In this document: one piece after another, positions 30,368 through 50,518 of the stretch
How positions within the stretch are numbered: position 1 is the first letter of the stretch
Layout: each line of letters begins with the position of its first letter
From: Fodinibius salicampi
GTDB taxonomy: Bacteria > Bacteroidota > Rhodothermia > Balneolales > Balneolaceae
DNA length: 64,000 bases
NCBI RefSeq assembly: GCF_039545095.1
Contig: NZ_BAABRS010000003.1
Location: forward strand, 310,001-374,000
Reading direction: 5' to 3'
Notes under the pieces: model-generated
Told to the model about the DNA's origin: nothing
Seen by the model: the letters and a program-made list of their open reading frames with translations, nothing else
The model's database searches: none
Position numbers and translations under genes: made by a program

Positions 30368-30510
30368 AAACACAATATTTAGACTTTCAAATTAAAAGTG
30401 TACTATCCACAAATTTTAGCTTTATATATTTATTAAAAAATAAAAGAACGACTCTTTCTTCTTTTAATAACCACTTGTATAGTATTTTTACCGTATCCAA
30501 AAACTCTAAT

Positions 30511-31746: not shown

Positions 31747-31756
31747 AGTCAAGAGG

Positions 31757-33325: not shown

Positions 33326-33400
33326 TATATTTTACCCACAAAATTATTATTAATTTAAAATAAATTATTTAATCCCCTTCTATTTCTATTGTCTTTAGTC

Positions 33401-34171
33401 CTATAGTCGTTGTAAACTGAGTCCCCCGTCAACCATCATTACCTCACCTGTTGAATAGGGAAAATCTCCGCTCACAAGCGAGAGAACTGCTTTGCCAACA
33501 TCTTCCGGATATCCCCACCGTGGCTGAATTGTTAGTCCTTCTGCAATCAATTTATCATATTTTTCTTCTACACCAGAGGTCATATCAGTTTTAATAATAC
33601 CCGGGCGGACTTCATAAACCGGGATATCGTATTCGGCCATACGTGCAGCCCAAATCTTATTATGCATGGCTATCCCGGCCTTTGATATACAATACTCTCC
33701 TCGTTTGGGCGATACAATGGTTGCCGAAATAGATCCGATATTTATAATGCTTCCCTTAAATGAATCATCAGCTTTTTTTTGCTCTGCCAACCATCGTGCC
33801 ACGGCCTGCGTGAGAAAATAAGGACCCTGAAGATTGATACGCATTAGGCGTTCAAAACTTTCTTCGCTAGCTTTTAGCGGATCCTGACGCTCTTTGGGAG
33901 CTACACCTGCATTGTTAACGAGAACATTGAGTCGCCCAAAATGCGAACGGATCTTATTAACAATAGCTTCGCGATCTTTAGCTAATCCTATATCTCCCTG
34001 GCAATAGATTACCTCAGCTCCCTCCGAACTCAGCTCCTCTATAACATCCTGTACCTTTTCCTCCCCGCGGACACCGTTAAAAGCAATATTATATCCGTTT
34101 TGGCTAAGTTTTTTGGCAATTCCCAATCCAATTCCCCGTGATCCACCGGTTACCAATGCAACAGGTTTCAT
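33401..34171 (-). CDS. SDR-family oxidoreductase (FabG/KduD-like)
   Basis: 256 residues, classical short-chain dehydrogenase. The NAD(P)-binding motif is TGGSRGIGLGIAK (about 8-20), NNAGVAP follows near residue 90, and the catalytic set is Ser in INIGSIS and Tyr/Lys in YCISKAG (about 165-170). The end MMVDGGLSL is typical. The sequence is like 3-ketoacyl-ACP reductases, but its place in a sugar-acid cassette suggests it oxidises or reduces a sugar acid such as a keto-deoxy sugar. It starts 2 bases after the GH88 stop and precedes the transporter by 75 bases. Confidence 0.85.
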   Translation of the reverse strand: MKPVALVTGGSRGIGLGIAKKLSQNGYNIAFNGVRGEEKVQDVIEELSSEGAEVIYCQGDIGLAKDREAIVNKIRSHFGRLNVLVNNAGVAPKERQDPLKASEESFERLMRINLQGPYFLTQAVARWLAEQKKADDSFKGSIINIGSISATIVSPKRGEYCISKAGIAMHNKIWAARMAEYDIPVYEVRPGIIKTDMTSGVEEKYDKLIAEGLTIQPRWGYPEDVGKAVLSLVSGDFPYSTGEVMMVDGGLSLQRL

Positions 34172-34173
34172 AG

Positions 34174-35565
34174 TTATACCTCAGACTTTATTCCATTAAA
34201 AAAAGTGTAATAAGGAGCCTCATTGTAGATGCGTGTCAGATAGAGAGCCAGTTCGCGCATGTGATAATCCCCCCACATACTCGACTCTCCGCAGGGTATG
34301 CTTTGTCCTTCCGGTATATAATCCCAACCGTTCGGCCGGTGATACACCGAATGAAGTAATAGTCCCTGATGGGATTCGTCGGTACTCAGATAGGGTTCAT
34401 CCAGCAAAGTACGGCCAACGGTTAAGCCCGCCTGCCAATAACGACTTCCATCTTCCTGTTCATTATTTGTGTTTAGATAATGTCCAAGGCGTAACAAGCC
34501 CTGGGCGCCAATAGCTGCGGCTGAGCTGTCTACCGGCTCAAAATCGTTATACGGATCCGCCGGCACCTGGGTGTAGTCTCCGAGCTTATGCAGTTGGGGA
34601 GCTCCGGTATCCCAGTAAGGAATGCCATCCAGAGAGGTATGGTCAATATAAAAATCACATGTAGCCTTAGCTGCCTCGAGCATCATCTTTTCAATAGCAG
34701 ATCGTCCTCCAAAAGGCTCAAGTTCCTCATCATCAATTGTTTCCAGCCATTCCAGCTGTTCGGCAAACCCACACATCGCCCAGGCCAATCCCCGTGTCCA
34801 TGTGGAAAAGGGGGAGTAGCCCTGCTGGGAATTCGGGCAGCGATACTGGCCGTCTGTAACATTAAACACCGATTCATGAGCAGTTCGTCCCCGAATATCG
34901 TAGGGGGCATCCGTTGATCCATAATAGATATTATAGCGGGCCGTCTTACGAGCATGCTGTATCAAACGCTCCAGCAGGGAAATGGGTTCATCGTGCTCTC
35001 CATACAAAGTATGCCCAAGCTGATGGCTAATTGCCAGAGCCCTAAGGGTTCGAACGGTATCAACGAACAGGGAGTGCGGACCATTAAACGAGTGAATAAA
35101 CCCTTCTCCATCTTCAGTGGTAGTCCAACGGGCAGCCTGTACCGCCCCGGTGCTTTTCAGGGCTAAATCATAAAACTCATTTTCCCATTTATCCGCTTCT
35201 ATTCGTCCTTCATGGCTAAGTCGGCGGAGAGCGCCGTATGTACTTACGTTATTGAATCCATGGTCATGAACTCCTATATGCGTAATATGAGGAGCCATTT
35301 CATTAATGGTAGCCTCCCGGGCCATATCCAGAAACTCCGTATCATCGGTTACATCGTACTGTAAGATCTCTGATCCGAATTGAAATCCCTGCGTCCACTC
35401 GGTCCATCCACGTGAAGTGTATTTTCCTCTTTTGGTAAAAACCGGTGACCCTTTAGCGGTATCGTATTCATCTCGAATCAATCGTATTTTTTGACCCGAA
35501 AGTTTCCAAAACCTATTGAGTAATTCCTGAAGATCTTCAGCTACAAGATCATCTTTTATTTTCAT
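34174..35565 (-). CDS. GH88-like unsaturated glucuronyl hydrolase
   Basis: 463 residues, no signal peptide, so cytoplasmic. The (alpha/alpha)6 barrel of GH88 is supported by QFGSEILQY, HDHGFNN with D101, SLFVDTVRTLRAL with D169, and FSTWTRGLAWAMCGFAEQLEWL. D101 and D169 align with the two catalytic Asp of UGL (Asp88 and Asp149, spacing similar). Such enzymes remove a 4,5-unsaturated uronic acid from oligosaccharides left by a polysaccharide lyase; no lyase is in the window. It is flanked by a Gfo/Idh/MocA gene (50 bases upstream) and the SDR (2 bases downstream), so the unit looks like one operon. Confidence 0.85.
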   Translation of the reverse strand: MKIKDDLVAEDLQELLNRFWKLSGQKIRLIRDEYDTAKGSPVFTKRGKYTSRGWTEWTQGFQFGSEILQYDVTDDTEFLDMAREATINEMAPHITHIGVHDHGFNNVSTYGALRRLSHEGRIEADKWENEFYDLALKSTGAVQAARWTTTEDGEGFIHSFNGPHSLFVDTVRTLRALAISHQLGHTLYGEHDEPISLLERLIQHARKTARYNIYYGSTDAPYDIRGRTAHESVFNVTDGQYRCPNSQQGYSPFSTWTRGLAWAMCGFAEQLEWLETIDDEELEPFGGRSAIEKMMLEAAKATCDFYIDHTSLDGIPYWDTGAPQLHKLGDYTQVPADPYNDFEPVDSSAAAIGAQGLLRLGHYLNTNNEQEDGSRYWQAGLTVGRTLLDEPYLSTDESHQGLLLHSVYHRPNGWDYIPEGQSIPCGESSMWGDYHMRELALYLTRIYNEAPYYTFFNGIKSEV

Positions 35566-35615
35566 TATAGTGCCTGCTTCTATTTCTTTGTTCTAAATAT
35601 TTGCGGTGATTATAA

Positions 35616-36776
35616 TTACGTTAAAGATGGTATATCCATCCACTCACGCTGTTGAGATGCTTTATATCCAATCTCAGCAAGCTGAACTCCTTTGGCTGCT
35701 TCCAGCAGATCCCATCTGAAAGGCTCATCCTTGACGACGTGGCGCAAGAAAAGCTCCCACTGCACTTTAAATGCATTATCAAATTCCTGTTGATCCGGCA
35801 TTTTAATCCAGTCCTCATTAAAATTGTGATCTGAATCCACATCCGGATTCCACACTGGCTTGGGTGTAGCGGAATGCGGTTGAATCCACGCTTCCCGCAG
35901 CCCAGCAACAGCCGATCCATCCGTTCCGTCTACCTGGAATGTAACTAAATCATCGCGGCGGACCCGGGTGGTCCATGAGGAATTAAACTGAGCCACCACA
36001 TTATTTTCCAATTCAAAAATCGCATAAGCCGCATCATCGGCCGTAGCCTCATAAGGCTTTCCATCTTCATCGTACCGCTCATCCAGATGCGTTGCGCCCA
36101 GACAAGATACTCTTTTAACCTCCCCGAAAATATTATCGAGTACGTATCGCCAGTGGCAAAACATATCTAGGATAATTCCCCCGCCATCTTCTTTGCGATA
36201 GTTCCAGGAAGGACGTTGAGCGGGAATGGTATCTCCTTCAAAAACCCAGTACCCAAAGTCGGCCTTTACCGAAAGAATTTTACCAAAAAAATCCTGTTCT
36301 TTCAGCTGCTGTAATTTAGCCAGTCCCGGCAGCCAGAGCTTATCCTGAACCACCCCGTGTTTAACACCCCCATCCTCAGCTATATGATATAGTTTTACAG
36401 CTTCTTCGGTGGAAACCGCCGTGGGCTTCTCACAATAAATATGCTTGCCTGCAGCCACCGCTTTTTTTACACTGTCGAATCGTAAATCCGTACGCTGGGC
36501 ATCAAAATAGATTTGATAGTCATCATCCTCCAATACGGAATCCAGGTCAGTAGTCCATTTTTCAATACCGGTTTGATCCTGTAGGTTTTGCAGCTTTACC
36601 GGGTTACGGCCAACCAGTACCGGGTCAGGAATGATTACTTCATCTTCACTTATTTTAACACCTCCTTGCCGAATGATCGGCATAATGGAGCGCAACAAAT
36701 GCTGATTTGTACCCATACGGCCCGTCACGCCATTCATTATAATACCGACCGTATGCTTTGTTAATTCGTCACTCAT
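35616..36776 (-). CDS. Gfo/Idh/MocA-family oxidoreductase
   Basis: 386 residues, NAD(P)-dependent sugar dehydrogenase or related enzyme. The Rossmann start is longer than usual: IIMNGVTGRMGTNQHL (about 11-26). The family catalytic Lys motif is YCEKPTAVS (near residue 120), and KHGVVQDKL follows. The C-terminal half is typical (GGIILDMFCHWRYVLDNIFG), with conserved His in the substrate pocket. The substrate cannot be read from sequence. It lies between the cupin and GH88 genes on the same strand, 31 and 50 bases away respectively. Confidence 0.9.
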   Translation of the reverse strand: MSDELTKHTVGIIMNGVTGRMGTNQHLLRSIMPIIRQGGVKISEDEVIIPDPVLVGRNPVKLQNLQDQTGIEKWTTDLDSVLEDDDYQIYFDAQRTDLRFDSVKKAVAAGKHIYCEKPTAVSTEEAVKLYHIAEDGGVKHGVVQDKLWLPGLAKLQQLKEQDFFGKILSVKADFGYWVFEGDTIPAQRPSWNYRKEDGGGIILDMFCHWRYVLDNIFGEVKRVSCLGATHLDERYDEDGKPYEATADDAAYAIFELENNVVAQFNSSWTTRVRRDDLVTFQVDGTDGSAVAGLREAWIQPHSATPKPVWNPDVDSDHNFNEDWIKMPDQQEFDNAFKVQWELFLRHVVKDEPFRWDLLEAAKGVQLAEIGYKASQQREWMDIPSLT

Positions 36777-36807
36777 CTTATCAATACTTTTACGCTTTTA
36801 TATAATT

Positions 36808-37278
36808 TTATTCAGATTCATTATCACCATTACCAGCTGCCGATTTCGTACATTGCGGCCAGGCTCCTTCGGGCAGGGGAGGAACATCTTCTCCTTCTTT
36901 AGGTAGCGTTCCGTCCAGTTCCTGTCGCCAGTGGTCTACATCGCCGGCAGGACCGTAGCAATAGATCATTTTAAGGGGTTCTTCTCCCACGTTCGTCAAT
37001 TGATGAAACTTTCCGGATGGAATGTAAACCGTCTGTCCACCATAAATTTTTTGTCGCTCATCATCGACACACATTTCACCGGTCCCTTCCAGGATATGAT
37101 ATATTTCTTCTTGAGGATGATTGTGCCATGGGACCTGTCCACCTTTAGGATCAAGCACTACTAATCCAAGTGAAAAGTTCTCCGGTTGAATGAGAGCACT
37201 TCCCCCTGCAATATTTTTTGTAAGACGCTGGGCAGGAAATCTACGTCCATCGGTCTCTTTTAAATCAGATATAATCAT
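36808..37278 (-). CDS. Cupin-domain protein
   Basis: 156 residues with one cupin barrel. Metal-binding signatures are PWHNHPQEEIYHILEG (HxH plus Glu) and PSGKFHQLTN with the last His. The N-terminal 30 residues and a C-terminal extension (PPLPEGAWPQCTKS) lie outside the barrel. Cupins in sugar-acid loci often isomerise or open unsaturated uronates (KdgF type), but the length and extension differ from KdgF, so this is only a possibility. As first gene of the downstream cassette its promoter should lie in 37279-37586. Confidence 0.85.
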   Translation of the reverse strand: MIISDLKETDGRRFPAQRLTKNIAGGSALIQPENFSLGLVVLDPKGGQVPWHNHPQEEIYHILEGTGEMCVDDERQKIYGGQTVYIPSGKFHQLTNVGEEPLKMIYCYGPAGDVDHWRQELDGTLPKEGEDVPPLPEGAWPQCTKSAAGNGDNESE

Positions 37279-37656
37279 TCCTTTATTCTATTGTTTAAAT
37301 AATTTGAATATCTATTTCTCAATCGCTTTTAACATAAAAACAAATTCTAAATAAGCAATTTATTTAAAGCTGTCTTCAAATAGCATGAATTCATTAGATA
37401 ATAATTTTCATCAGCATACTCCAACTGAATATGAATGATTATAAGAGTTTATAAACATTCAGTTTAGCAAAGTAATAGATTTGAAATACGATCGCTGACC
37501 CGCAAGCTGCATTGCATATAAAGACGGTGAGTTTTATATCCCGTAAAATGCCCTGATATAAAAACAAATATATACTCGCTTTTATTAAAAATTGCCGGCA
37601 AGAAAAATCCTTACCGGCAATTTTGAAAACCTGATTTACTTCAACTCAATTTTCCG
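37279..37656. other. Intergenic region between cupin cassette and susD
   Basis: 378 bases containing the susD terminator (37587-37624) and, on its left half, the likely promoter region of the cupin-led cassette. The sequence is AT-rich. I see no TAACCGGTTA operator here, so this cassette may answer to another signal. Confidence 0.5.
37587..37624 (-). terminator. Terminator after susD
   Basis: AAAATTGCCGG (37587-37597) pairs with CCGGCAATTTT (37614-37624) across a 16-base loop. On the minus strand the stem is followed by TTTTTAATAAAA. It ends the susC-susD transcript about 35 bases after the susD stop. Confidence 0.85.
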
Positions 37657-39339
37657 TTAATAGCCCGGATTCTGCGGGAAGGCACTTTCACCGCCTTCAG
37701 TGCGATCAATCTGTGCCTGTGGAATCGGTCTGAGCCTATGGAATTCCTGCAGATTTCCTAAAGGAGGAACCGCATCGGGATTATGTGCTGTAGTTCTTTC
37801 GACCAGCTTCCCGGTCCGTTTCAGATCGAACCAGCGGAAACCCTCACCAAGCAATTCCCGACCACGCTCATCCAGAATAAAATCTATGCCATCTTCCGCA
37901 AGAGCCTGAGGTGTTCTTGAGACAACCGTTGCTTCTTCGCCAGGCCATGCTGCACGCTCCCTGACTGCATTAAGATGACTTATAGCATCAATCGAAGCCG
38001 CACCATCCATATAATAATAGGCCTCAGCAGCAATCAAATGCGTTTCTGCAAGGCGGAATGCAAGCCAGTCACGTGAACCAGCAGTTACATTTACCCCAGC
38101 CCGATTGGGATCCATATGCTTCCAAAGAGGAGGAAAGTTGATAGAGTTATACTCCTCAGGAGTAATTACCTGCATATTATACTCCTGCTGTTCTTCTATA
38201 GGCATATTATAGCCTGGGAACCAGATAGCCGTATCACCTTCCGCCAGCGTTGTTTCGACACCATCTATCTCATAAGTGCCGGGATCGATAACCCGGAATG
38301 CATCCTTAAAGGTTTTTTTGTACCGTGAATCTACATCCCGGTCCTCTAAATCATACATCTCCTGGGTAGTAAACTGGGTGGGACGGAAACGACGGAAAGG
38401 CCTTCCAAACTCAACCGTCCGGAATAAGCCAGGCTCCTGATCATAGGGGAAATTAAAATAGAGATGAGAGGAATTCCCATTCTTGCCATCTGCGGATACG
38501 TTAGCCAGCGTATTCTCAGAAAACTGCACTGCCCAGATCACTTCGGCATTACGCTCATTCCCAACGGCATGGACGTCACCAAAATCCTCCAGCAGTTCAA
38601 AATTGTAGTCATCGATAACCGTTTCGGCCAAATTAGCAGCCTGTTGGTAATCATCAGATCCGGCCGCATCCGTAGTCGCACGGGTTAGATATACTCGGGC
38701 CAGCAGATGCTCAGAGGCAGGTTTGGTTGCCCGCCCATACTGTCCTGCTTCTACCGGAAGGTTGGCAATAGCGAATTCCAAGTCCGAAATAATCTGATTA
38801 TACACCTGATCAATCGGTGCCCTGGAAGCCTCCAGTTCTACTCCTTCGGTTTCCTCAGTAGTGAGATGGACAGGACCAAACAACTGGACCAGGATGAAGT
38901 AATAGTGGCCACGCAGGAACCGCGCTTCAGCTGCTCTTCGTGTCGTTATCTCCTGGCTAACACCATCTACACCACCCTCAGCCCGCTGAACTACCGTATT
39001 GGTAATATTGATTCCCTGATACATATTTTGCCATATCCACTCGCTAATGTAATCGAAGGAATCGAACTCATTGCTGTAACGGTTCATATATTTAAAATCG
39101 CCATCAGCGCCCTCACGGTACGTATCAGTTCCAAAGACTGTAGCTGTTAGTCCCTGCTCCGTACCATAAAAACTTCGCAGAGGATAATAAGCTGCATTAA
39201 CAGCCTCCTCAAAACCGTCAGGTGTATTATAACGGCTATCACTTACCTGGGTATAGACCTCCTCCTCCAATAAATCAGAGCATGAGGCAAACATCCCAGC
39301 CACCAACACTAATGCAATTATTTTAAGATACTTAAACAT
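37657..39339 (-). CDS. SusD/RagB-family nutrient-binding lipoprotein
   Basis: 560 residues. Surface lipoprotein that binds glycans or other nutrients and feeds them to its SusC partner. The lipobox MFASC gives Cys20. SusD signatures include SDLLEEEVYTQ near the start, EARFLRGHYYFILVQLFG (about 140-157), LARVYLTRA, and the C-terminal WFDLKRTGKL and LGNLQEFHRLRPIPQAQIDR. Several TPR-like helices form the core. It follows susC by 17 bases and ends in a strong terminator, so susC-susD form one transcript. Confidence 0.95.
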   Translation of the reverse strand: MFKYLKIIALVLVAGMFASCSDLLEEEVYTQVSDSRYNTPDGFEEAVNAAYYPLRSFYGTEQGLTATVFGTDTYREGADGDFKYMNRYSNEFDSFDYISEWIWQNMYQGINITNTVVQRAEGGVDGVSQEITTRRAAEARFLRGHYYFILVQLFGPVHLTTEETEGVELEASRAPIDQVYNQIISDLEFAIANLPVEAGQYGRATKPASEHLLARVYLTRATTDAAGSDDYQQAANLAETVIDDYNFELLEDFGDVHAVGNERNAEVIWAVQFSENTLANVSADGKNGNSSHLYFNFPYDQEPGLFRTVEFGRPFRRFRPTQFTTQEMYDLEDRDVDSRYKKTFKDAFRVIDPGTYEIDGVETTLAEGDTAIWFPGYNMPIEEQQEYNMQVITPEEYNSINFPPLWKHMDPNRAGVNVTAGSRDWLAFRLAETHLIAAEAYYYMDGAASIDAISHLNAVRERAAWPGEEATVVSRTPQALAEDGIDFILDERGRELLGEGFRWFDLKRTGKLVERTTAHNPDAVPPLGNLQEFHRLRPIPQAQIDRTEGGESAFPQNPGY

Positions 39340-39356
39340 AATATTATCCGGTTATT

Positions 39357-42350
39357 TTAAAATGTTAAATTGATTCCAAAATTCATTTGCCAACGTGCCG
39401 GCGTCCCTGTTCCGGGATTTTCCGGATCAATTCCACCATGGTCTTGCACATAGGATGAAAAGATAAACGGCTGATCTGCACTTGCATAGATGCGAAGTGA
39501 CTGGGCTCCCAACACATTTTGAACCGCTTCAACAGGAAGAGTATATCCCAACTGAATATTACGTACCTTTATAAAGCTCCCGTCAAAATAAAGCCGAGAA
39601 TCATTATAAATAGGATACTCTCTGTTTATTGTAGGCCTTGGATGTCTGTTTGCAGGATTACTAGGTGTCCAGTAGTTAACATCATGCTCGTTATACCTAC
39701 CGACCAAGGCCGTATCATGGATTCCGCTGTCAATAGTTCTTCCAAAGACTGCGTATAAAAAGATGGATAAATCCACTCCCTTATAACTGACACGATTGGT
39801 CATACCGCCGCTAAGCTTTGGCATCTGCTGGCCAATGATAGTCCGGTCTGCGGCATTTATCTGTCCGTCACCATTTAAATCATAGGGACGAATTTCTCCC
39901 GGAATCTGATTGTATTCTGCGGCCAGATCTGCCTCATCCGATTGCCAGACTCCACGCTGCTCGTAGTCATAAAATACGTTAATGGGTTCGCCTATAAACC
40001 ATTCGTTACCGACATCATCTTCGCCCTCCCCATAGAGTTCTACTATTTCCTCCTTATTGGAAGCGAAATTCAGATCAGTCGTCCATTGGAAACCATCATT
40101 TCCTCCCGCTTCAACGTTTACTGTAGAAAGCGATACCTCGATACCCGTGTTACGGGTAGAACCTATGTTCTCCAGGATACTTCCATAACCACTGGTAAGA
40201 GGCAACTGCCGCTGCAATAAGAGATCACTGGTATTTTGCTGATAAACATCAACGCTACCAGTAACACGTGAATCAAGAATACCAAATTCTAATCCGATAT
40301 TCGTGGTTGCAGTGGTTTCCCATTTCAGATCTTTATTGGAAATCTGAGAGGGTTGATACCCATAAGCTAAATCACTTCCATAATTGTAGGCTGTTCGATC
40401 CAGAAGTGCCAGCGTCTGGTAAGGGTCAATCCCCGTCTGTCCGGTTTTACCCCAGCTAACGCGTAATCTTAGATCACTAAACAAACCGTCGCTGTTAAAG
40501 AAGTCTTCGTTGGCAATATTCCAGGAAAAAGCCGCTGAAGGGAAAACGCCATATTTATTATTGGCTCCAAAACGTGAGGACCCATCCACACGTCCGGTTA
40601 CCGTTAACAAATAGCGGTCATCGTAGTTATAGTTGGCTCGAAGCATACTGGAAACCAAACTCCATTTTTCAAAGCCGGTGTCTGAACCCAAAATGTCCTG
40701 GGCTGCCCCAAAATTATGATGCTTCATAGTCTCAATAGGGATACCCCTGACCGACATACTGGATACTTCCGTCTGCCGCTCCTGAACACTGAACAGACCT
40801 GTTAAACCCAGGGAATGCTTCTCCGCAAATGTCTGCTCATACTCGACAATATTTTCCCAGGTATATTCGAAAATAAAATCTTCAGCCTTTTGACCGGCAG
40901 CAGGACCTAAAAACTGTGCCCGTGACCGAGAAGCCTGAAAATCGCTGTTCCGCTCATATCGAATATCCGGAGCAAAGTTCATACGAAAGCTCAGATTATC
41001 GAGCAGATCATACTCGGCATAAACATTACTCAGAAGCCGTTGTCTTTTTTCTTCATCTATATAGGTTTCGGGAAGAACTTCAATCAGTGGGTTTGAGCGC
41101 TGACCATCGTTGATCGGCTGAAACACTAAATTCCCTTCTTCGTCATAGGGTGATCCAAGGGGACTATTATTAACGGCTTCGCTATAAAAATTGCGATCGC
41201 CGCCATTCCTAATACTATAACTACCCAATGTAGTCGTCCCAATGGTAAGCTTATCCGTCACATCCATATCCAGATTAATCTGAATATTGTAGCGACTAAA
41301 ATCTTCGGGAGCCAGAATACCCTGTTCCTGCAGACCACCAAAGGAGACATGAAATCTCGTATTCTCATTTCCTCCTGATATTCCCAGGTTATGGTTATGC
41401 CTTACGCCCGTTTGAAGAATCATTTCCTGGTAATCTACCCATTCTCCATTATTTAGTTTTTCAAGCTCACCGGGTTCGAGGAATTGGGAATCATCTTCAT
41501 ACTGACCGGCAGCACGATGTGCTTCCCGGTTAAGTTCCGCATACTCTTCTCCGTTCATTCGGTCTATCTTCGATAAAGCCTTAGAAAAACCGACAGATCC
41601 GTTATAACTGACGGATAAATCACCATCGTAACCCCGGCTGGTAGTTACAATAATCACACCATTAGAGCCACGGGCACCATAAATTGCCGTAGCGGAGGCA
41701 TCCTTTAATACCTCAATCGACTGTATAGTTGACGGATTTATATCTCGAAGTCCACCTGATATTGGTACTCCATCTATCACATAAAGCGGATCATTGCCTG
41801 CATTAATAGATCGATTTCCACGAATACGAACACTGGCACCTGAGCCAGGCTTCGTTCCACTTTGGCTAACCGTCACACCGGCCGTTCGTCCCTGTAGTCC
41901 CTGATCAATGGATGTGATCGCAACTTCATTCATCTCTTCTGCCGTAACTGAGGATACAGAACCGGTTACATCTTCCCGCTCCTGGGTACCGTAACCAACA
42001 ACGACGACATCTTCTCCAATTATTTGACTTTGGTTGAGTTCTATATTGAACTCAACGGACTCACCTTCGTCTACCTGTAGTGTTGTTTCAAACCGTTCAT
42101 AGCCTACATAAGTAGCTACCAGAGTATAGGTACCCGCCTCATCAAGCGTAATGTTATAACTCCCATCGGCGCCCGTTGCAGATCCCGTTTCCAATTCCGG
42201 AATGTATATGTTTGCACCCGGTATCGGATTATCGGTTATAGCATCTGTAACGATTCCGCTAATTTGTTGCGCAAACACTGATGGTGCGCAGAACACACTC
42301 CCAATTATACCAATTAAGAGTGCCAAAAAAGTCTGTCTTATTTTTCTCAT
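39357..42350 (-). CDS. SusC/RagA-family TonB-dependent outer-membrane transporter
   Basis: 997 residues from the ATG at 42350 (an upstream GTG at 42392 also reads in frame). A signal peptide ends APSVFAQ. A CarboxypepD_reg-like domain follows (about 29-110; SGIVTDAITDNPIPGANIYI). The TonB box region is VVVVGYGTQ, then the plug domain has LQGRTAGVTVSQS and VRIRGNRSINAGNDPLYVIDGV. The remainder is a long beta barrel ending GINLTF. Typical SusC length. It pulls in substrate bound by the SusD gene product 17 bases downstream. Operator-like palindromes lie upstream. Confidence 0.96.
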   Translation of the reverse strand: MRKIRQTFLALLIGIIGSVFCAPSVFAQQISGIVTDAITDNPIPGANIYIPELETGSATGADGSYNITLDEAGTYTLVATYVGYERFETTLQVDEGESVEFNIELNQSQIIGEDVVVVGYGTQEREDVTGSVSSVTAEEMNEVAITSIDQGLQGRTAGVTVSQSGTKPGSGASVRIRGNRSINAGNDPLYVIDGVPISGGLRDINPSTIQSIEVLKDASATAIYGARGSNGVIIVTTSRGYDGDLSVSYNGSVGFSKALSKIDRMNGEEYAELNREAHRAAGQYEDDSQFLEPGELEKLNNGEWVDYQEMILQTGVRHNHNLGISGGNENTRFHVSFGGLQEQGILAPEDFSRYNIQINLDMDVTDKLTIGTTTLGSYSIRNGGDRNFYSEAVNNSPLGSPYDEEGNLVFQPINDGQRSNPLIEVLPETYIDEEKRQRLLSNVYAEYDLLDNLSFRMNFAPDIRYERNSDFQASRSRAQFLGPAAGQKAEDFIFEYTWENIVEYEQTFAEKHSLGLTGLFSVQERQTEVSSMSVRGIPIETMKHHNFGAAQDILGSDTGFEKWSLVSSMLRANYNYDDRYLLTVTGRVDGSSRFGANNKYGVFPSAAFSWNIANEDFFNSDGLFSDLRLRVSWGKTGQTGIDPYQTLALLDRTAYNYGSDLAYGYQPSQISNKDLKWETTATTNIGLEFGILDSRVTGSVDVYQQNTSDLLLQRQLPLTSGYGSILENIGSTRNTGIEVSLSTVNVEAGGNDGFQWTTDLNFASNKEEIVELYGEGEDDVGNEWFIGEPINVFYDYEQRGVWQSDEADLAAEYNQIPGEIRPYDLNGDGQINAADRTIIGQQMPKLSGGMTNRVSYKGVDLSIFLYAVFGRTIDSGIHDTALVGRYNEHDVNYWTPSNPANRHPRPTINREYPIYNDSRLYFDGSFIKVRNIQLGYTLPVEAVQNVLGAQSLRIYASADQPFIFSSYVQDHGGIDPENPGTGTPARWQMNFGINLTF

Positions 42351-42401
42351 AGTATCACAATCCCTTTTCTCAAAAATCAAAATTAAAACCACAGAATCAT
42401 G

Positions 42402-42411
42402 TAACCGGTTA
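42402..42411. promoter_or_regulatory. LacI-type operator ahead of susC, site 1
   Basis: TAACCGGTTA, a perfect 10-bp palindrome, about 50 bases upstream of the susC ATG. A candidate Bacteroidota-type -7 element TAATTTTG lies on the minus strand at 42378-42385, so the operator would fall in the -33 region. Same sequence as at 50383. Likely bound by the LacI-family protein encoded at 46.4-47.4 kb. Confidence 0.6.
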
Positions 42412-42428
42412 AGTAATATACTTTTAAA

Positions 42429-42438
42429 AAAACGGTTA
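42429..42438. promoter_or_regulatory. LacI-type operator ahead of susC, weak site 2
   Basis: AAAACGGTTA matches TAACCGGTTA at 8 of 10 positions and keeps one full half-site. It lies 27 bases from site 1 on the same side of susC. Weak on its own. Confidence 0.35.
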
Positions 42439-42514
42439 CTCAGTTTCTATAGGGCAGATGATTTTTGAATAATTAGCATTATTTTTTGATTAAGTTAGAT
42501 TATCCCCTATTACT

Positions 42515-42524
42515 TCACCGGTTA
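42515..42524. promoter_or_regulatory. LacI-type operator ahead of susC, site 3
   Basis: TCACCGGTTA matches the palindrome at 9 of 10 positions, about 113 bases from site 1. Spaced sites of this kind could allow looping by a dimer-of-dimers or act as separate sites. Confidence 0.5.
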
Positions 42525-42606
42525 ATTAAAAAAAATCCCAAACAAATACAAACAAACATCGAAAGTATTGGTATTTTATTTCAATAATCTTTCAAAAACT
42601 TTCAAA

Positions 42607-45600
42607 TCATTTTTCTTCATAAGGTAATATATAATCTTTTTGCCCCTCAACTACCTCTAACTCTTCGGTTTTACCGTCAAACCATATCACTCTTATTTTT
42701 TCTACCTTTGCTTCATTATCAGCACCAATAATTTGGGTGAAGCTATTTTGCGACCAGTATCCGACACCGGCCTGTACCTCTCTTAATGGTCCCTTAGAAT
42801 TCTTATCTTTATAGATCAATTGAATGCCTGACCCGATCGCATTTCTATTCCGGGACGGCCCCACTAGTGTGATCCGGTAGCCTCGGCTCTCCGTTTTATT
42901 CTCATAAAGCTTTGTATCATAACCATTTTGCGATACAGCCAGATCTACTTTCCCATCTTTATTGAAGTCACTGAATGCCGCCCCCCGCTGCTCGCCATAA
43001 ATCTTAATGCCCGATTTGCTACCGGATACCGCCGAAAAGCCTCCATTTCCATCTCCTTTGAGCCATACCCCCCGGCCTGCATCCTGACGGGGAGACTGAC
43101 GAGGGACCCCAAATAAATTTTGACTTAAAAACAGATCTTCATTTCCGTCATTATCCATATCTGCAACCCCGGCATGAAAAGATATACTAAATTGTGATTC
43201 TATGGGTAGCTTACGTCCTTCAAATCCATCGCCTGTATTTAAAAATACCATATGTTCCAGCGTATTAATCTCTTTATATGGCATGCGATCATATTTCCCC
43301 CTAAACAGATCACGCAGCGTACTGTTTGCGAACTGCTCATGACTGTTTATTTGATTGGCTATATCAGGGATCGATCCAAAATGAAATAGTTGTCTCCGCG
43401 GCACATACTCTTCATCAGCATTTGAATAAGCTTCAATAATCTCAACCCAGGGATCACGGTTAAGGTAGTCGTAGTACATTCGTATAGGGTTATCATAGGT
43501 GAGTTTATATGGACTGTTTAATCCACGGTTCGTAACAACAAGATCCGGCCGGCCGTCATTGTTAAAGTCACCACTTGCAATTCCATTCCACCAGCCCTTC
43601 AGATCGGCAAGCCCAACACTTGCCGTCACGTCCTTGAAATTTCCACCTTCATTCTCCAATACCAGTATTGAATCCCAAGCCCGGCTTAAAACCAGATCCG
43701 GATCGCCATCCCGGTCATAATCGGTAAATACTGCTCCTATTACCATTCCTATTTCCTGCAACTTAGCCGAATTGGTTCGGTCAATACTAAATGAACCTCT
43801 TTCATTGAGCAACAATCGCGAAGTAGCATTTTTTGGATAATGTCCGGGAATAAACCGTCCTCCCACAAAAAGATCTATATCTCCATCAGCGTCATAATCG
43901 GCTGCGGCCATAGGTCCAGTGGCAGACATGTTAGCCGGAATAGAATCCAAATGAACATTATTAAGATCATTAACCTGGTATTGGTAAGCAGATGGTGCCT
44001 GGGCATTTCCCTGCTCATAATTTACATTTCCAACAAGAATATTCGTGCCCTGACCTTCCTCCCAACCCAGAATTGTAGCTTGGTCTCCCGGCGCAGCCTG
44101 GCTTAAAAGAGGCAGGGTGATTTCACGAAACTCACCATCTCCCAAATTTTCAAACACTCCGATTGCTCCTCCTTTACCCGAACCAATCAATAAATCATCA
44201 TCTCCGTCCTGATCGATGTCAATCCATGAAATGCCCGGCCCTAACTGACTGAGGCGCAGGGGCAAGAGGGATTGAAAATCGAAATCATTAAAATTGTTTT
44301 CATGGTGACTGTGATTAATCCGGGCAGACACATCTTCAAAAATCGGGTCATTAATTTCTTCCGTATCCTTTATTTTCTTTTTCTCTTTCCGGACCTCTGC
44401 TTCATATACTTCGTAGATGCGATTTGCGGGGATACTATCCAGACGGCTTTCTGTCCCGTCCGGCCAGGTAATCACCAGCTGGTGATTTTCGTTTTGGCCA
44501 TCCGCTGCAAATATCACCATGGGATCAGAACCCGAAAGATAGCTCCCCCCGGAAGCCAGCTCCTTTTTTTGTTCTACCTCAGCTCCGATTAGCTTAATTT
44601 TTGCCCCAATTGCCTGCGTATTCGGTGACTCTCCAATAAGCCTGACTCCGATACGGGGAGCGCGGCCAATATTTTTATAAATGGCCGCTTCTTCATTCAT
44701 CCGGTTAATAGCCAGGTCCAGCGTGCCGTCATTATTTAAGTCTGCTACAGCCATTCCGTGGGAAATATCCTTCCCTTCAATTCCCAGGTCAGTTCCCCTT
44801 TCCCGAAATGTCAGGTCTCTGTTATTCATAAATATCTGATTACGCAACTTCAGAGATGGAGCACCTCTCATAAATTCAGTAAAGTGCTCATCCATGTTTT
44901 TTCCCTTGCGCACCATATTTAGCTGCGCATCTATATCCAAAATATGATACAGGTACCCATTATTTACAATAAGGTCCTCATAGCCATCCAAATCGATATC
45001 CATAAACGTTGCATCCCATGACCAGCCGCTGCCTTCTACGCCACTCAAATATGCAATTTCAGCATAGGTAAGATCCTCTCTTTTCAGGAATAATGAGTTC
45101 CTATTATTTGTCGGGCGGGCTTCAACGTTTCTGTATTGCTCGGGATTCGGATCATCGGAACCTACTTGTCGAAGCCTTTCGCTATGTTCAGGACTTAGCA
45201 TCTCTGCGGTAAAGATATCTGTTTCACCATCCCTGTTGACATCCGAAAAATCTACTCCCATACATGCAAAGCTAATATTTCTAATCGCCCACTGATCTAT
45301 TTGTTTGAATGTTCCCTCACCCTGATTTATCCATATTTTATCTTTGGTAAAGAAATCATTACATACATATAAATCAGGCAGCCCATCGCCATTCAGATCC
45401 TGGAATTTAGCCGTCAATCCCCAATCCCTTGCTAAGCCTGAGGAATCTCCATCCTCGTCAAGAAACATCTCTTCCGGATTAGAGATCTTTTTAAATGAAC
45501 CCTGCTGATTAATATATAACTCATCTTCTTCACCGGTTTCCGCTAAGCCCCCAAGACGATTATCGTCTGTCATAAAAATATCGTAGTGTTCATCAAAAGG

Positions 45601-46314
45601 GGAAGTCAGTGAAAACGGACCCGTTTGGTTTTGCCTGTTATAGGGTTCGTTAAGAACATTATTCATTGCAAGCTCTTCGGTGGAATACATATCCTTAACG
45701 GTTTTCTCCTTGTACTTGGCCACATAAAGATCCAAATACTGATCCCCGTTAATATCTGCCAAAGCCATGGTCGTACTGCCTTCTCCTGCTCCCAGACCAC
45801 TCTCATCATGCAGCTTAAAATTTCCGCTCCCATCATTAAGATATAGAGCATTATTTTTACCTATAGAGGTAACCAGGAGATCTAAATGCCCATTACCATT
45901 TATATCCGCGAAGGCAACCCCGGTTGAGTGGTGATCCTCGTGGGCTACGCCGGCTTCATCCGTAATATCCCTGAACTCCATTCCCCCTAAATTCTTATAC
46001 AATTTGTTAGAGTTTTTGAGTCCGGCAAAATATAAATCCACCAAGCCATCCCCGTCTATATCCCCGGCGGCAACCCCGGAACCAAGCAAGTAATGACGGT
46101 TTTCACTTAATTCCTCTTCTGTGATATGATTTCCAAACTCAATACCGGTGTCCGAGGGAGATTGCAGTTCAAAGCCATATTCATCCGCTGAGCCGGAGGG
46201 AATTTGTGCCCAGTGATATTCACTCTCCTGATGCCATTCTAGTTCCGGTGCAGTGTTACAAGCCGTCAATATTGATAAAACAAAAACAAGAAAACCCTTC
46301 TTATAAGAAGCCAT
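42607..46314 (-). CDS. Very large VCBS/FG-GAP lipoprotein with ASPIC/UnbV domains
   Basis: 1235 residues with lipobox LTACN (Cys19), so probably surface-exposed and lipid-anchored. It contains many FG-GAP/VCBS beta-propeller repeats with Ca-binding DxDxDG loops (for example DIDGDGLVDLYFAG, DINGNGHLDLLVTS, DVNRDGETDIF). Two ASPIC/UnbV-type segments appear: IGAKIKLIGAEV near residue 568 and RNAIGSGIQLIYKD near 1155. These domains occur in CRTAC1-like proteins, which often accompany SusC/SusD in marine Bacteroidota and may bind glycans. It shares the strand with susC/susD, whose promoter lies just downstream of its stop, so it is probably on a separate transcript. Confidence 0.88.
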   Translation of the reverse strand: MASYKKGFLVFVLSILTACNTAPELEWHQESEYHWAQIPSGSADEYGFELQSPSDTGIEFGNHITEEELSENRHYLLGSGVAAGDIDGDGLVDLYFAGLKNSNKLYKNLGGMEFRDITDEAGVAHEDHHSTGVAFADINGNGHLDLLVTSIGKNNALYLNDGSGNFKLHDESGLGAGEGSTTMALADINGDQYLDLYVAKYKEKTVKDMYSTEELAMNNVLNEPYNRQNQTGPFSLTSPFDEHYDIFMTDDNRLGGLAETGEEDELYINQQGSFKKISNPEEMFLDEDGDSSGLARDWGLTAKFQDLNGDGLPDLYVCNDFFTKDKIWINQGEGTFKQIDQWAIRNISFACMGVDFSDVNRDGETDIFTAEMLSPEHSERLRQVGSDDPNPEQYRNVEARPTNNRNSLFLKREDLTYAEIAYLSGVEGSGWSWDATFMDIDLDGYEDLIVNNGYLYHILDIDAQLNMVRKGKNMDEHFTEFMRGAPSLKLRNQIFMNNRDLTFRERGTDLGIEGKDISHGMAVADLNNDGTLDLAINRMNEEAAIYKNIGRAPRIGVRLIGESPNTQAIGAKIKLIGAEVEQKKELASGGSYLSGSDPMVIFAADGQNENHQLVITWPDGTESRLDSIPANRIYEVYEAEVRKEKKKIKDTEEINDPIFEDVSARINHSHHENNFNDFDFQSLLPLRLSQLGPGISWIDIDQDGDDDLLIGSGKGGAIGVFENLGDGEFREITLPLLSQAAPGDQATILGWEEGQGTNILVGNVNYEQGNAQAPSAYQYQVNDLNNVHLDSIPANMSATGPMAAADYDADGDIDLFVGGRFIPGHYPKNATSRLLLNERGSFSIDRTNSAKLQEIGMVIGAVFTDYDRDGDPDLVLSRAWDSILVLENEGGNFKDVTASVGLADLKGWWNGIASGDFNNDGRPDLVVTNRGLNSPYKLTYDNPIRMYYDYLNRDPWVEIIEAYSNADEEYVPRRQLFHFGSIPDIANQINSHEQFANSTLRDLFRGKYDRMPYKEINTLEHMVFLNTGDGFEGRKLPIESQFSISFHAGVADMDNDGNEDLFLSQNLFGVPRQSPRQDAGRGVWLKGDGNGGFSAVSGSKSGIKIYGEQRGAAFSDFNKDGKVDLAVSQNGYDTKLYENKTESRGYRITLVGPSRNRNAIGSGIQLIYKDKNSKGPLREVQAGVGYWSQNSFTQIIGADNEAKVEKIRVIWFDGKTEELEVVEGQKDYILPYEEK

Positions 46315-46388
46315 GCCTTTTTTCCAAAAAACAAGAGTATATATGATAAATTATTTATTAAAAGCCTTAATCCACAATAGGAAATAGA

Positions 46389-47378
46389 TTACTTAATTAT
46401 ATCGGTCTGCATTGAAATAAGTTCGGGTTTAGCCTTGCCATCGGATTCAATCTCCATCACCAATCGCTTGAAAGCTCGATACCCTAAATCAAAAGTAGGC
46501 TGGTCGATACATATAAATGGGTGTGAGAGGTATTGATTAAATTCACTGCTTCCAAAGGAAAGAATAGTGATCTCACCTGGATCAATATCATGTTCTTTCA
46601 TATATTTCAGTGCACCCAATCCCACAGGATAGGTTGCACAAAAAACAGCTTCCGGCTTTCCGTATCCTTCCATTAATTTCCCAAATCCCCTGTAACCATC
46701 TTCTTCACTGAACCCTGTTTCTACAACTGCATTTTCATCTATATCTATGCCTGCTTCAGTTAAAGCTTCCCGGTAACCAAGATTCCGGTCTCTTCCGATT
46801 TCCACGCTTAAATATCCAGACAGATGGGCAATATTCATATAGTTCCGATCTATGAGATACTGAACCCCTTTTTTAGCTTGTTTCTTATCATCCACCCTCA
46901 AATAGGTATAGTTAGCATCAGAAAAGCCCCGGTCAAAAAATACTAATTGCGCATTCATGTCTTTAACTCGCTCAAAGTATTCGGCCTCTTTTGTTTTCTC
47001 AGAAATGGATATCAATAGCCCCTCCACTCTCATATTGAGCATTGATTCGACATGCTTTTTTTCCAGCTTGTCATCTTCCAGTGATACCCCAAGAATAACT
47101 TCATAATCACTTTCAAGAGCAGCTTGATATATGCCATCAATGACTGAGGAAAAGAAGGAGTGAGCAATTTTAGGGACGATAACTCCAATAATCTGAGTTT
47201 TTTTGGATGTCAGAGAACGGGCTACAAGATTGGGTCGATACCCCATCTTTTGCGCCATTTTCTTAACTTTTTTCTTCGTCTCCTCTGATATATCCGAATG
47301 GTCCCTGAGAGCCTTGGACACACTAACTTTCGTTAAATCAAGTTTTTTAGCAATATCCTCCAATCGTACATTTTTCAT
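46389..47378 (-). CDS. LacI-family transcriptional regulator
   Basis: 329 residues. The N-terminal helix-turn-helix (about 4-45: VRLEDIAKKLDLTKVSVSKA, then LRDHSDISEETKKKV) includes a hinge helix (RPNLVARSLTSKKT). The periplasmic-binding-protein-type sensor domain follows: IGVIVPKIAHSFFSSVIDGI near 60, LVFFDRG, VEGLLISISE, and IDQPTFDLGYRAFKRLV. The start is the ATG at 47378; a TTG just upstream also reads in frame. Its likely targets are the TAACCGGTTA palindromes near 42.4 and 50.4 kb, which have the CG-centred form typical of LacI-family operators. No such site lies directly ahead of its own gene. The inducer is unknown. Confidence 0.92.
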   Translation of the reverse strand: MKNVRLEDIAKKLDLTKVSVSKALRDHSDISEETKKKVKKMAQKMGYRPNLVARSLTSKKTQIIGVIVPKIAHSFFSSVIDGIYQAALESDYEVILGVSLEDDKLEKKHVESMLNMRVEGLLISISEKTKEAEYFERVKDMNAQLVFFDRGFSDANYTYLRVDDKKQAKKGVQYLIDRNYMNIAHLSGYLSVEIGRDRNLGYREALTEAGIDIDENAVVETGFSEEDGYRGFGKLMEGYGKPEAVFCATYPVGLGALKYMKEHDIDPGEITILSFGSSEFNQYLSHPFICIDQPTFDLGYRAFKRLVMEIESDGKAKPELISMQTDIIK

Positions 47379-47680
47379 CAATCCTTTTTTGCATTAGTAT
47401 TTATATTTAGAACTGCAAAACTCCAAATATGACATATACCCTAAAGTCATAATTAAAAAATATAATATCCTTATACTGACTGAAAATTAATTTTTTATAT
47501 ACTTCTTCCCACTCTCTATCCTATTAATTAATATATAATATATCTCCTTCCTGTCTTTAGTTAGGAATTATTGTTACACCTACGCGGCGAAAACCCGGAC
47601 ATATAATTCCTCCAAAAGATCAGGTTCAACCATCATACTAGCCTTCCCCAATAAGCAACAGGAAGGAGACTCATTATCTG
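47379..47680. other. Intergenic region ahead of the LacI gene
   Basis: About 300 AT-rich bases between the 474-aa oxidoreductase and the LacI gene, both on the minus strand. It should hold the LacI promoter. I see no palindrome matching the operator and no clear terminator. Confidence 0.45.
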
Positions 47681-49105
47681 TTAGCTTCCTCGAGTTGGAT
47701 GAGGAGTGATAGAGGTTAAATCCTCAATGCGCACTGGCTTACCCGATTCAATACTATTACGTGCCGCAATACCTACCAGTATGGACATGGCACCGTCTCT
47801 TTTTCCGGCAGAATGCTCAAGAGGATCCTCCATATCAGGATTCCGAAAGATTTGATCCTGCAGACGCCTGTCTCCACCTCCATGGCCGCCGCTTTCCTGG
47901 CGTACCTTAATTTGTTCGTGCTGACTGCTAAAGTTATCCATGACCATAATTTCTTCGTAGTCGATGGCTTCCTCCCGCTCTTCCTGGGACATTTCCTGCT
48001 GATGCAACTCAGCCTGATTTGCCTTTTCCTCTTCTCTCCATGGAATTCCATGCCAGGCATCAATACGTCCGTCAAAACCATTGAAACCGATTTTCATTCC
48101 TTCGTAGGGCGAATAAGTAGTGAGGGAGTAATTTACCTGCACATCATTGGCATATTTTATTTGCAGCGACATCTTATCATAAATATCGATTTCATGTCTC
48201 CATAGGCAGTTATCCCGGATATAGCCATCATGTTCTTCATTGGCTACATAGAGATCCATATACGTATCATTATTCGTTATATCCCAGTAGAAATCACACT
48301 TATCCTTATGGGGACAGGTACGGCATTTATTGCCCCGAAACGGATGATTGCTTCCGTAATGCTCTAAGGAGCCTTCAGCATAGACTTCCACCGGATCGGA
48401 ATCCAGCCACCAGTTCAAAAGGTCAAAATGGTGCGTAGCCTTGTGAACCAACAGGGTTCCACTGCTGGCTTCAATGCCGTGCCAGCGTCGGAAATAGGAG
48501 GCACCGTGATATACGTTCAGATACCAATCAAAGTCAACCGAAGTAATTTTCCCAACTCTCCGGTTCACTAACATCTCTTTCAATTTCGTATGGTGTGGAC
48601 TATAGCGGTAGTTAAATCCTACAATGAGTTCTCCATCCGACTTTGCCTCTGCATCCAAAATTGCCTGACACTTATTCTCATCTGTAGTCATGGGCTTTTC
48701 GGTTAACACATCAATGCCCCGCTCCAATCCCTTAATAATAAACTGGTGATGGGTAGCATCCACTGTAGTAACAATGAGCATTTCAGGTTCTGTGGTATCC
48801 ATCATCTCATCAAAATCAGTAAATGTGGGACAATCAGCCCCGATGAATTCCTTTCCGTACTCCAGTCGGCCGGGATTTATATCACATAGCCCAACAAATT
48901 CAGCAATATCCCCATATTGTTCTCGTACTGTTCTGCCCCAGAAGGTAATTCCCCGGATGCCGGTTCCAACCAAGGCAATTTTCCTCTTTTCAGCTGAAGC
49001 AAACTTATCCGCAAAAGCGCCCATGGGCCTAGCAAACATGCCTCCCGCCATTGCCCCTGTTGCACTTTTTAAGAAATCTTTTCGTGTTATATTATTTGAT
49101 GCCAT
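47681..49105 (-). CDS. Exported Gfo/Idh/MocA-family oxidoreductase with Cys cluster
   Basis: 474 residues. The N-terminus carries a Tat-like signal: TRKDFLKSATGAMAGG, with RK in place of RR, so export is likely but not certain. The NAD-binding motif is VGTGIRGITFWGR (about 46-58), EKPMTT is the family Lys motif, and IVGFNYRYSPHH follows. An unusual CRTCPHKDKC (Cx2Cx4C) near residue 265 suggests a metal site. Similar exported members have been linked to glycoside or sugar-derivative oxidation. It lies 92 bases downstream of a second, cytoplasmic Gfo/Idh/MocA gene. Confidence 0.85.
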   Translation of the reverse strand: MASNNITRKDFLKSATGAMAGGMFARPMGAFADKFASAEKRKIALVGTGIRGITFWGRTVREQYGDIAEFVGLCDINPGRLEYGKEFIGADCPTFTDFDEMMDTTEPEMLIVTTVDATHHQFIIKGLERGIDVLTEKPMTTDENKCQAILDAEAKSDGELIVGFNYRYSPHHTKLKEMLVNRRVGKITSVDFDWYLNVYHGASYFRRWHGIEASSGTLLVHKATHHFDLLNWWLDSDPVEVYAEGSLEHYGSNHPFRGNKCRTCPHKDKCDFYWDITNNDTYMDLYVANEEHDGYIRDNCLWRHEIDIYDKMSLQIKYANDVQVNYSLTTYSPYEGMKIGFNGFDGRIDAWHGIPWREEEKANQAELHQQEMSQEEREEAIDYEEIMVMDNFSSQHEQIKVRQESGGHGGGDRRLQDQIFRNPDMEDPLEHSAGKRDGAMSILVGIAARNSIESGKPVRIEDLTSITPHPTRGS

Positions 49106-49197
49106 AATGCTACCCTTATCTTATTTTAAGTTAACTATCGTTTTTAAATCCCTTATTACTGTCCCGCCCGATTTAAGGTTATCCTCTGAGGGACCTT

Positions 49198-50256
49198 TTA
49201 CCCAGCCAGCAGCGTATCAGGATATACGGCCCTTTTTTCGTCTGCAGAAAGATAGAGTCCTTCTACAAAGGCCAGTGACTTCAAACTATCTTCTCCCGAT
49301 ACAACAGGCTTATCATCATTCAAAAATGCCGGTAATATCTGGTCGTATTGTTTCTTATGATTATTATTGGACATCCCTGCCATGGGGCTCGAAGCACCGG
49401 CCCCGGAACTTTCTTCAGTTTTTGTCTCCTCCTCATCATTAAGATCCGTTCCCCTGAGCTTTAACCGATCTCCATCAAGGTGAGCCGTCCCGTTTTCTGC
49501 ATGAATTTCAATAGCTCGATTTTGAGGGGGAACAATAGACGTAGACGCCTTGAAAACCCCGATGGCCCCATTTTTAAATCGCAGGGACGCAACGGCATTA
49601 TCTTCGCCTTCTATTCTTTTATGCGTCAATGTATCTTTGTAGGCCTGCAGCGATTCTACCTCTCCACAAAGCCACAACAATAAGTCCACAGTATGGATGG
49701 CCTGATTAATTACCGCGCCACCCCCGTCCAGCGAAAGTGTACCTCGCCACCCGGCACTGTCATAATACTCCTGATCCCGGAACCATTTTACAGAGGCGTC
49801 TACCATGACTATCTTTCCCAACGCCCCTTCATCAATAATACTTTTCAGCTTTTTGACATCTTCGATAAACCGGTTTTGATATATAACCGCCAGCTTCACC
49901 TCGTTCTTTTGACAGCGGTCAACCAACCGGCGGGCGCGATCCAGAGAAACCTCTATTGGTTTCTCAATAATTAAATGCTTTCCCGCCTCTGCAGCTTTTT
50001 CACCGTAATCTAAGTGGGTGCCGCTGGGCGTACAGACAACTACTACATCAAGATCACCGTCGGCAAGAAATTTCTGGTAATCACTGTAACCCTTAACCTC
50101 AAATTTATTGCAAAAAGTAGCCAGATTTGATTCAGTTCTACTGAAGGCCGATATAAGTCGCCCGTATTCTGTCTCTGCTATCGCTTCAGCATGAGTGTCG
50201 GCAATAGTTCCACAGCCAACAAGTCCGATATTAAATTCTTTTTTCGGTTTCGCCAT
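49198..50256 (-). CDS. Gfo/Idh/MocA-family oxidoreductase (cytoplasmic)
   Basis: 352 residues, no signal peptide. The Rossmann motif is GLVGCGTIADTHAEAI (about 12-27), VVVVCTPSGTH follows, and IIEKPIEVS carries the catalytic Lys. GGGAVINQAIHTVDLLLWL is the typical substrate-domain stretch with a conserved His. It is probably an inositol-, hexose- or uronate-type dehydrogenase. The gene heads a minus-strand run with the 474-aa oxidoreductase and has a perfect TAACCGGTTA palindrome 127 bases upstream, so it is likely in the same regulon as susC. Confidence 0.9.
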   Translation of the reverse strand: MAKPKKEFNIGLVGCGTIADTHAEAIAETEYGRLISAFSRTESNLATFCNKFEVKGYSDYQKFLADGDLDVVVVCTPSGTHLDYGEKAAEAGKHLIIEKPIEVSLDRARRLVDRCQKNEVKLAVIYQNRFIEDVKKLKSIIDEGALGKIVMVDASVKWFRDQEYYDSAGWRGTLSLDGGGAVINQAIHTVDLLLWLCGEVESLQAYKDTLTHKRIEGEDNAVASLRFKNGAIGVFKASTSIVPPQNRAIEIHAENGTAHLDGDRLKLRGTDLNDEEETKTEESSGAGASSPMAGMSNNNHKKQYDQILPAFLNDDKPVVSGEDSLKSLAFVEGLYLSADEKRAVYPDTLLAG

Positions 50257-50382
50257 TCAACTACGTATCTAAAAATCTAATCTGATATTAAATTATGTCT
50301 AAAAATTATTGCACTTCTTTCCAAAAAGAAATCTCTATCCCTATTTAAAGAAAGTCATGGATATAGACCTATAAAGCCAATT

Positions 50383-50392
50383 TAACCGGTTA
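50383..50392. promoter_or_regulatory. LacI-type operator ahead of the 352-aa oxidoreductase
   Basis: TAACCGGTTA, a perfect 10-bp palindrome identical to the site ahead of susC 8 kb away. It is about 127 bases upstream of the oxidoreductase ATG in an AT-rich intergenic stretch. Likely a target of the LacI-family protein. Confidence 0.6.
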
Positions 50393-50518
50393 CTTATATA
50401 TATAATAAAAAAAACGAAAAGACAATTTTTATTATACTTCCCATAAGCAAATCATAGATCATACCATTCATTCAATTATTTTGCGAAAAAATTTAGACTG
50501 ATTACAAATAATTTAGGG

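Follow-up and report, generated by a model that had tools for sequence, protein, structure and literature searches.

The carbohydrate locus

The window, a stretch of 64,000 nucleotides of the Fodinibius salicampi genome, contains a carbohydrate locus in which susD, susC, the gene of an FG-GAP/ASPIC protein, lacI and two Gfo/Idh oxidoreductase genes are all encoded on the minus strand (Table 1). The lacI product is composed of a helix-turn-helix domain (PF00356, 37.4 bits with a cut-off of 27) and a C-terminal periplasmic-binding-protein-like ligand domain, to which PF00532, PF13407 and PF13377 all match above cut-off. Over nearly its full length it matches the structures of CcpA and PurR; PurR acts as a dimer, and the window LacI, with its 330 residues, is close to it in length. 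The recognition helix region, LTKVSVSKALRDH, is almost invariant among orthologs.

Table 1 Genes, predicted operators and other features of the locus (window coordinates).
Feature	Position	Strand	Description
Cupin-led cassette	27545..37278	-	Cupin, Gfo/Idh, GH88-like, SDR, DASS symporter, DUF6807, DUF6797-cytochrome c
Intrinsic-terminator-like hairpin	37588..37624	-	Follows susD immediately; 17 pairs, 3' arm rich in T
susD	37657..39339	-	Surface glycan-binding lipoprotein; PF07980, PF14322
susC	39357..42351	-	TonB-linked outer-membrane transporter; TIGR04056
Predicted operator O1	42399..42414	.	ATGTAACCGGTTAAGT; exact core, matrix score 21.4, rank 2 in genome
Predicted operator O2	42512..42527	.	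ACTTCACCGGTTAATT; matrix score 20.2, among the genome's top four places
FG-GAP/ASPIC-UnbV repeat protein	42607..46314	-	1235 aa; PF13517, PF07593
lacI	46389..47381	-	LacI/GalR-family regulator, 330 aa; PF00356, PF00532, PF13377; presumed reader of the sites
gfoA	47681..49105	-	Gfo/Idh/MocA oxidoreductase; PF01408, PF02894
gfoB	49198..50256	-	Gfo/Idh/MocA oxidoreductase, first gene behind O3; PF01408, PF22725
Predicted operator O3	50380..50395	.	ATTTAACCGGTTACTT; exact core, matrix score 22.7, the window's best

Located between lacI and susC is the FG-GAP/ASPIC-UnbV gene, which has the same place in relatives L043 and L044, and orthologs of gfoA (77–89%) lie close to lacI in five relatives. The Gfo/Idh fold is also that of GH109 enzymes. 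The start of susC is best placed at ATG 42351, not at the mechanically listed GTG 42392, because the leader GTGATAC...ATG is common to the relatives. Separating gfoA from lacI is a 298-bp gap with a strongly folded leader (47510–47665, minus strand) and an inverted repeat whose 12-base arms, TCTCCTTCCTGT ... ACAGGAAGGAGA, are separated by about 120 bases; this stretch was rejected as a repeated element, being present in a single copy in the genome.

Palindromic sites ahead of susC and gfoB

Exact matches to the palindrome TAACCGGTTA lie at 42402–42411 and 50383–50392, ahead of susC and of an oxidoreductase gene as the initial annotation had described, and between them is indeed the LacI-family gene, whose domains confirm the family. 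A 9/10 match (TCACCGGTTA at 42515) and an 8/10 match (AAAACGGTTA at 42429) had been taken to flank the 42402 site; both exist, but on one and the same side of it, upstream of susC.

Extending beyond the ten-base core, the putative operator is a 16-bp palindrome with the consensus ACTTAACCGGTTAAGT and a central CG. LacI-family operators are even palindromes with a central CG, situated in promoter regions (PMC4052901); ACTTAACCGGTTAAGT is likewise even, has the central CG and is intergenic. The half-site ACTTAACC is specific here; the site is otherwise of the same kind as LacI-family operators in general (PMC4052901). Scanning of the window with a matrix built only from ortholog loci, the window's own excluded, gave exactly three standouts (50379, 42398 and 42511, scoring 22.7, 21.4 and 20.2), referred to here as O3, O1 and O2, with the next-best place at 13.1. 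For random sequences matched in dinucleotide composition the matrix maximum averages 12.2, with a 95th percentile of 16.2. Of the four sites originally put forward, three are thus upheld; the 8/10 site, with a score of 6.2, is inside the random range and was rejected as an operator.

O1 is centred about 55 bp ahead of the susC ATG (42351), a position kept in relatives L043 and L044. O2 lies upstream of O1, at 113 bp centre to centre; as a conserved looping partner it was discarded, the spacing differing among relatives (two sites 35 bp apart in L045). O3 lies about 131 bp ahead of the gfoB start, and its equivalent precedes gfoA in L043, L044, L046 and L048 and a more distant gfoA homolog (47–48%) in L053, L057 and L058.

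At many loci a T-rich stretch is found 16–25 bp upstream of the operator centre, compatible with an operator overlapping a putative promoter. Several gfo promoters also have in common a AATTGTCTTTT-like element that lies some 40 bases further upstream than the operator centre (window 50405–50430; near 8200 in L053, 13690 in L057 and 12100 in L058), perhaps a part of the promoter or the site of a second regulator. Bacteroides-type -7 boxes were also looked for in the stretch from operator to start codon; there was one good match (TAATTTTG, susC) but no consistency in relatives, and these boxes were not retained.

Conservation beside orthologous regulators

The bare 10-mer carries no genome-wide significance: the 3.94-Mb genome has 8 exact copies of TAACCGGTTA, the same as a reversed-sequence control, and several of them fall in coding sequence. 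Allowing 0–2 mismatches, the window has 44 matches with 26 expected from shuffling, and the bare 16-mer with up to 3 mismatches shows no enrichment genome-wide (12 compared with 22 in the reversed control). Genome-wide statements here are drawn from pattern and profile searches. In the literature, TAACCGGTTA as a literal word was met in unrelated papers only. As the 10-mer count is uninformative, recurrence beside LacI orthologs was examined, and it is conservation beside orthologous regulators that makes the window sites significant.

Protein searches of 92 genomes of Balneolaceae identified, in addition to that of the window, 20 LacI ortholog loci with 56–76% identity, a group clearly set off from the next (39% and below). 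When each of the 1,024 possible ten-base palindromes was counted with at most one mismatch in the intergenic DNA of these loci, excluding the window, TAACCGGTTA ranked first, with 37 intergenic sites, 12 of them exact, in 19 of the 20 loci; the coding DNA of the loci, although 7.6-fold larger, has only 12 sites. The site is absent from the ortholog locus L056, a contig fragment. The same count in 20 LacI paralog loci (35–39% identity) gave 2 TAACCGGTTA sites, none exact. Frequent in these paralog loci (L079–L098) are two different palindromes with a central CG, TTATCGATAA and TTAACGTTAA, candidate operators of the paralog group.

Genomes with an ortholog (n=20, the window's included) contain a mean of 2.9 near-consensus 16-mers, compared with 0.63 in those without (n=72), an excess with a Mann–Whitney P of 7.5e-10 that includes no correction for relatedness; for the reversed control the means are 2.05 and 1.58. 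All sites with a score of at least 15.5 in the ortholog loci and the pectin clusters are intergenic. Beyond Balneolaceae, the motif remains in families of the same class next to regulators with 45–50% identity; next to 40–44% relatives in other families of the phylum it drifts to a TAAYCGRTTA-like form.

Pectin and uronate genes behind the sites

When the whole genome was searched with a profile whose training set contained none of its own sites, the four highest-ranking places were O1, O2, O3 and C1:274562 (18.4 to 15.1 bits); the best match in four genomes of the genus without an ortholog reached 15.4 bits. O2, the weakest of the four at 15.1 bits, is no stronger than this best chance match and therefore rests equally on position and score. 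C1:274562, the best-scoring site in the genome, is on a contig other than the window's and precedes an operon of VOC, GDSL esterase, GH28, pectin esterase, 3-keto-disaccharide hydrolase and Gfo/Idh genes. The substrate class is therefore predicted to be pectin/galacturonate. The sites mark a carbohydrate regulon, as had been proposed, but it is not confined to one locus.

A weaker site (matrix 17.3, profile 11.1 bits) lies ahead of a gene of the UxaE-family tagaturonate epimerase, so that this genome has both uxaE and the GH28–pectin esterase operon behind sites. In relatives, orthologs of the pectin genes (GH28 64–67%, GDSL 59–66%, pectin esterase 50–64%, 3-keto-disaccharide hydrolase 61–63%) have a site ahead of them or lie near the LacI ortholog. 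Further genes that sites precede or adjoin there encode pectate lyase, UxuA, UxaC and a TRAP binding protein, and SusC too is among those preceded by a site.

A second uronate cluster, G000:C1:233881-243557 (L133), has its own LacI paralog (C1:242568) and contains uxuA, together with a TRAP transporter, two kdgK-like kinases and uxaC named by eye from the sequences. Scanning of this cluster found no strong TAACCGGTTA site and nothing above 12.8, so uronate use appears to be split between two regulators.

The cupin-led cassette

Downstream of susD is the cupin-led cassette, whose 942-aa protein (27545–30373, minus strand), with DUF6797 and a C-terminal cytochrome c domain, is encoded beside the DUF6807 gene. 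The initial annotation had set this cassette apart from the regulon, and in this genome the sequence agrees with the split: the best matrix score in the gap between susD and the cupin gene is 5.3, with no operator, and the hairpin that parts susCD from the cassette is strong (-28.1 kcal/mol for the RNA fold of minus strand 37580–37660). In two relatives the picture differs. In L053 the orthologous run cupin–Gfo/Idh–GH88-like–SDR–DASS–DUF6807 adjoins the orthologous lacI and has its own operator, scoring 18.8, 44 bp ahead of the cupin gene, and in L045 the cassette directly follows susCD. Thus the cassette is likely to be functionally tied to the regulon, though operator-less here.

Discussion

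We consider it probable, at about 85%, that O1–O3 are operators of the LacI encoded at 46389–47381, which would repress a pectin/galacturonate regulon wider than the window locus. A LacI dimer would bind the 16-bp palindrome, repressing susCD from O1 and O2 and gfoB–gfoA from O3, and a metabolite derived from pectin or galacturonate would release it. The same LacI would also control the distant VOC–GDSL–GH28–pectin esterase–3-keto-disaccharide hydrolase–Gfo/Idh operon and would probably act on uxaE. The sequence itself shows the predicted sites, the genes that follow them and the conservation of the sites next to orthologous regulators; LacI binding and the identity of the inducer are what we infer. 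Repression, rather than activation, is most likely by analogy with the LacI family (PMC4052901). Whether lacI would be autoregulated from O3 is uncertain, owing to the 298-bp folded gap that parts it from gfoA.

The sites could instead be operators read by, or shared with, another LacI paralog, such as that of the uxaC–kdgK–TRAP–uxuA cluster (C1:242568). Seven LacI-family matches in the genome (six besides the window's) make cross-binding possible, and related LacI proteins often have central-CG palindromes in common. We regard this as unlikely: the uxuA cluster, with a LacI of its own, has no site above 12.8, loci of the 35–39% paralogs are without the motif and have candidate palindromes of their own, and across the 92 genomes the sites track the presence of the window-LacI ortholog.

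Less likely still is a regulon restricted to one carbohydrate locus that has four sites and leaves the cupin cassette out, despite three of the four best genome places lying in the window and the terminator after susD with no site ahead of the cupin gene; the single best place precedes a pectin operon elsewhere, the 8/10 site scores 6.2, and in L053 the cassette does have an operator. That the palindromes arose by chance and regulate nothing would accord with the equal numbers of exact copies in the genome and its reversed control, but they recur independently at 19 of the 20 ortholog loci, which together with the matrix and profile results makes this reading extremely improbable.

A pectin/galacturonate switch under this LacI would be of a familiar kind. 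The Bacteroides regulators KdgR (BT0487), UxaR (BT0824) and UxuR (BT1434) are LacI-family proteins of uronate catabolism (PMC3878776, PMC4052901), which the window LacI resembles, by description, in family and in its predicted uronate targets. UxuR2 of Algoriphagus marincola HL-49 is a predicted LacI-family regulator of galacturonate and glucuronate loci (PMC5507952), and shares with the window LacI its family, its occurrence in Bacteroidetes and uronate loci with a GH109-family gene and a TRAP transporter; unlike UxuR2, again compared by description, the window LacI has susCD and pectin hydrolases in its predicted regulon as well. In Bacteroides thetaiotaomicron the loci for rhamnogalacturonan polymers are under hybrid two-component systems (PMC3878776, PMC4052901), whereas here a LacI appears to control susCD and pectinases directly. 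The switch seems undescribed in Balneolaceae: papers in which this family and pectin both occur are, judged by title or abstract, not about regulation, and no regulon reconstruction was found.

One LacI co-regulating the pectin backbone enzymes (GH28, esterases, uxaE), the SusCD importer, Gfo/Idh dehydrogenases and 3-keto-disaccharide hydrolase might, tentatively, point to an oxidative 3-keto-glycoside route by which Balneolaceae break down pectin oligosaccharides, in which the FG-GAP/ASPIC protein would be a component not described so far, although we consider this doubtful. The analysis provides a well-supported operator sequence and substrate class for a Balneolaceae regulator, and the predicted co-regulation links uncharacterised Gfo/Idh, FG-GAP/ASPIC and cupin–GH88-like–SDR–DASS genes to the use of pectin or uronates.
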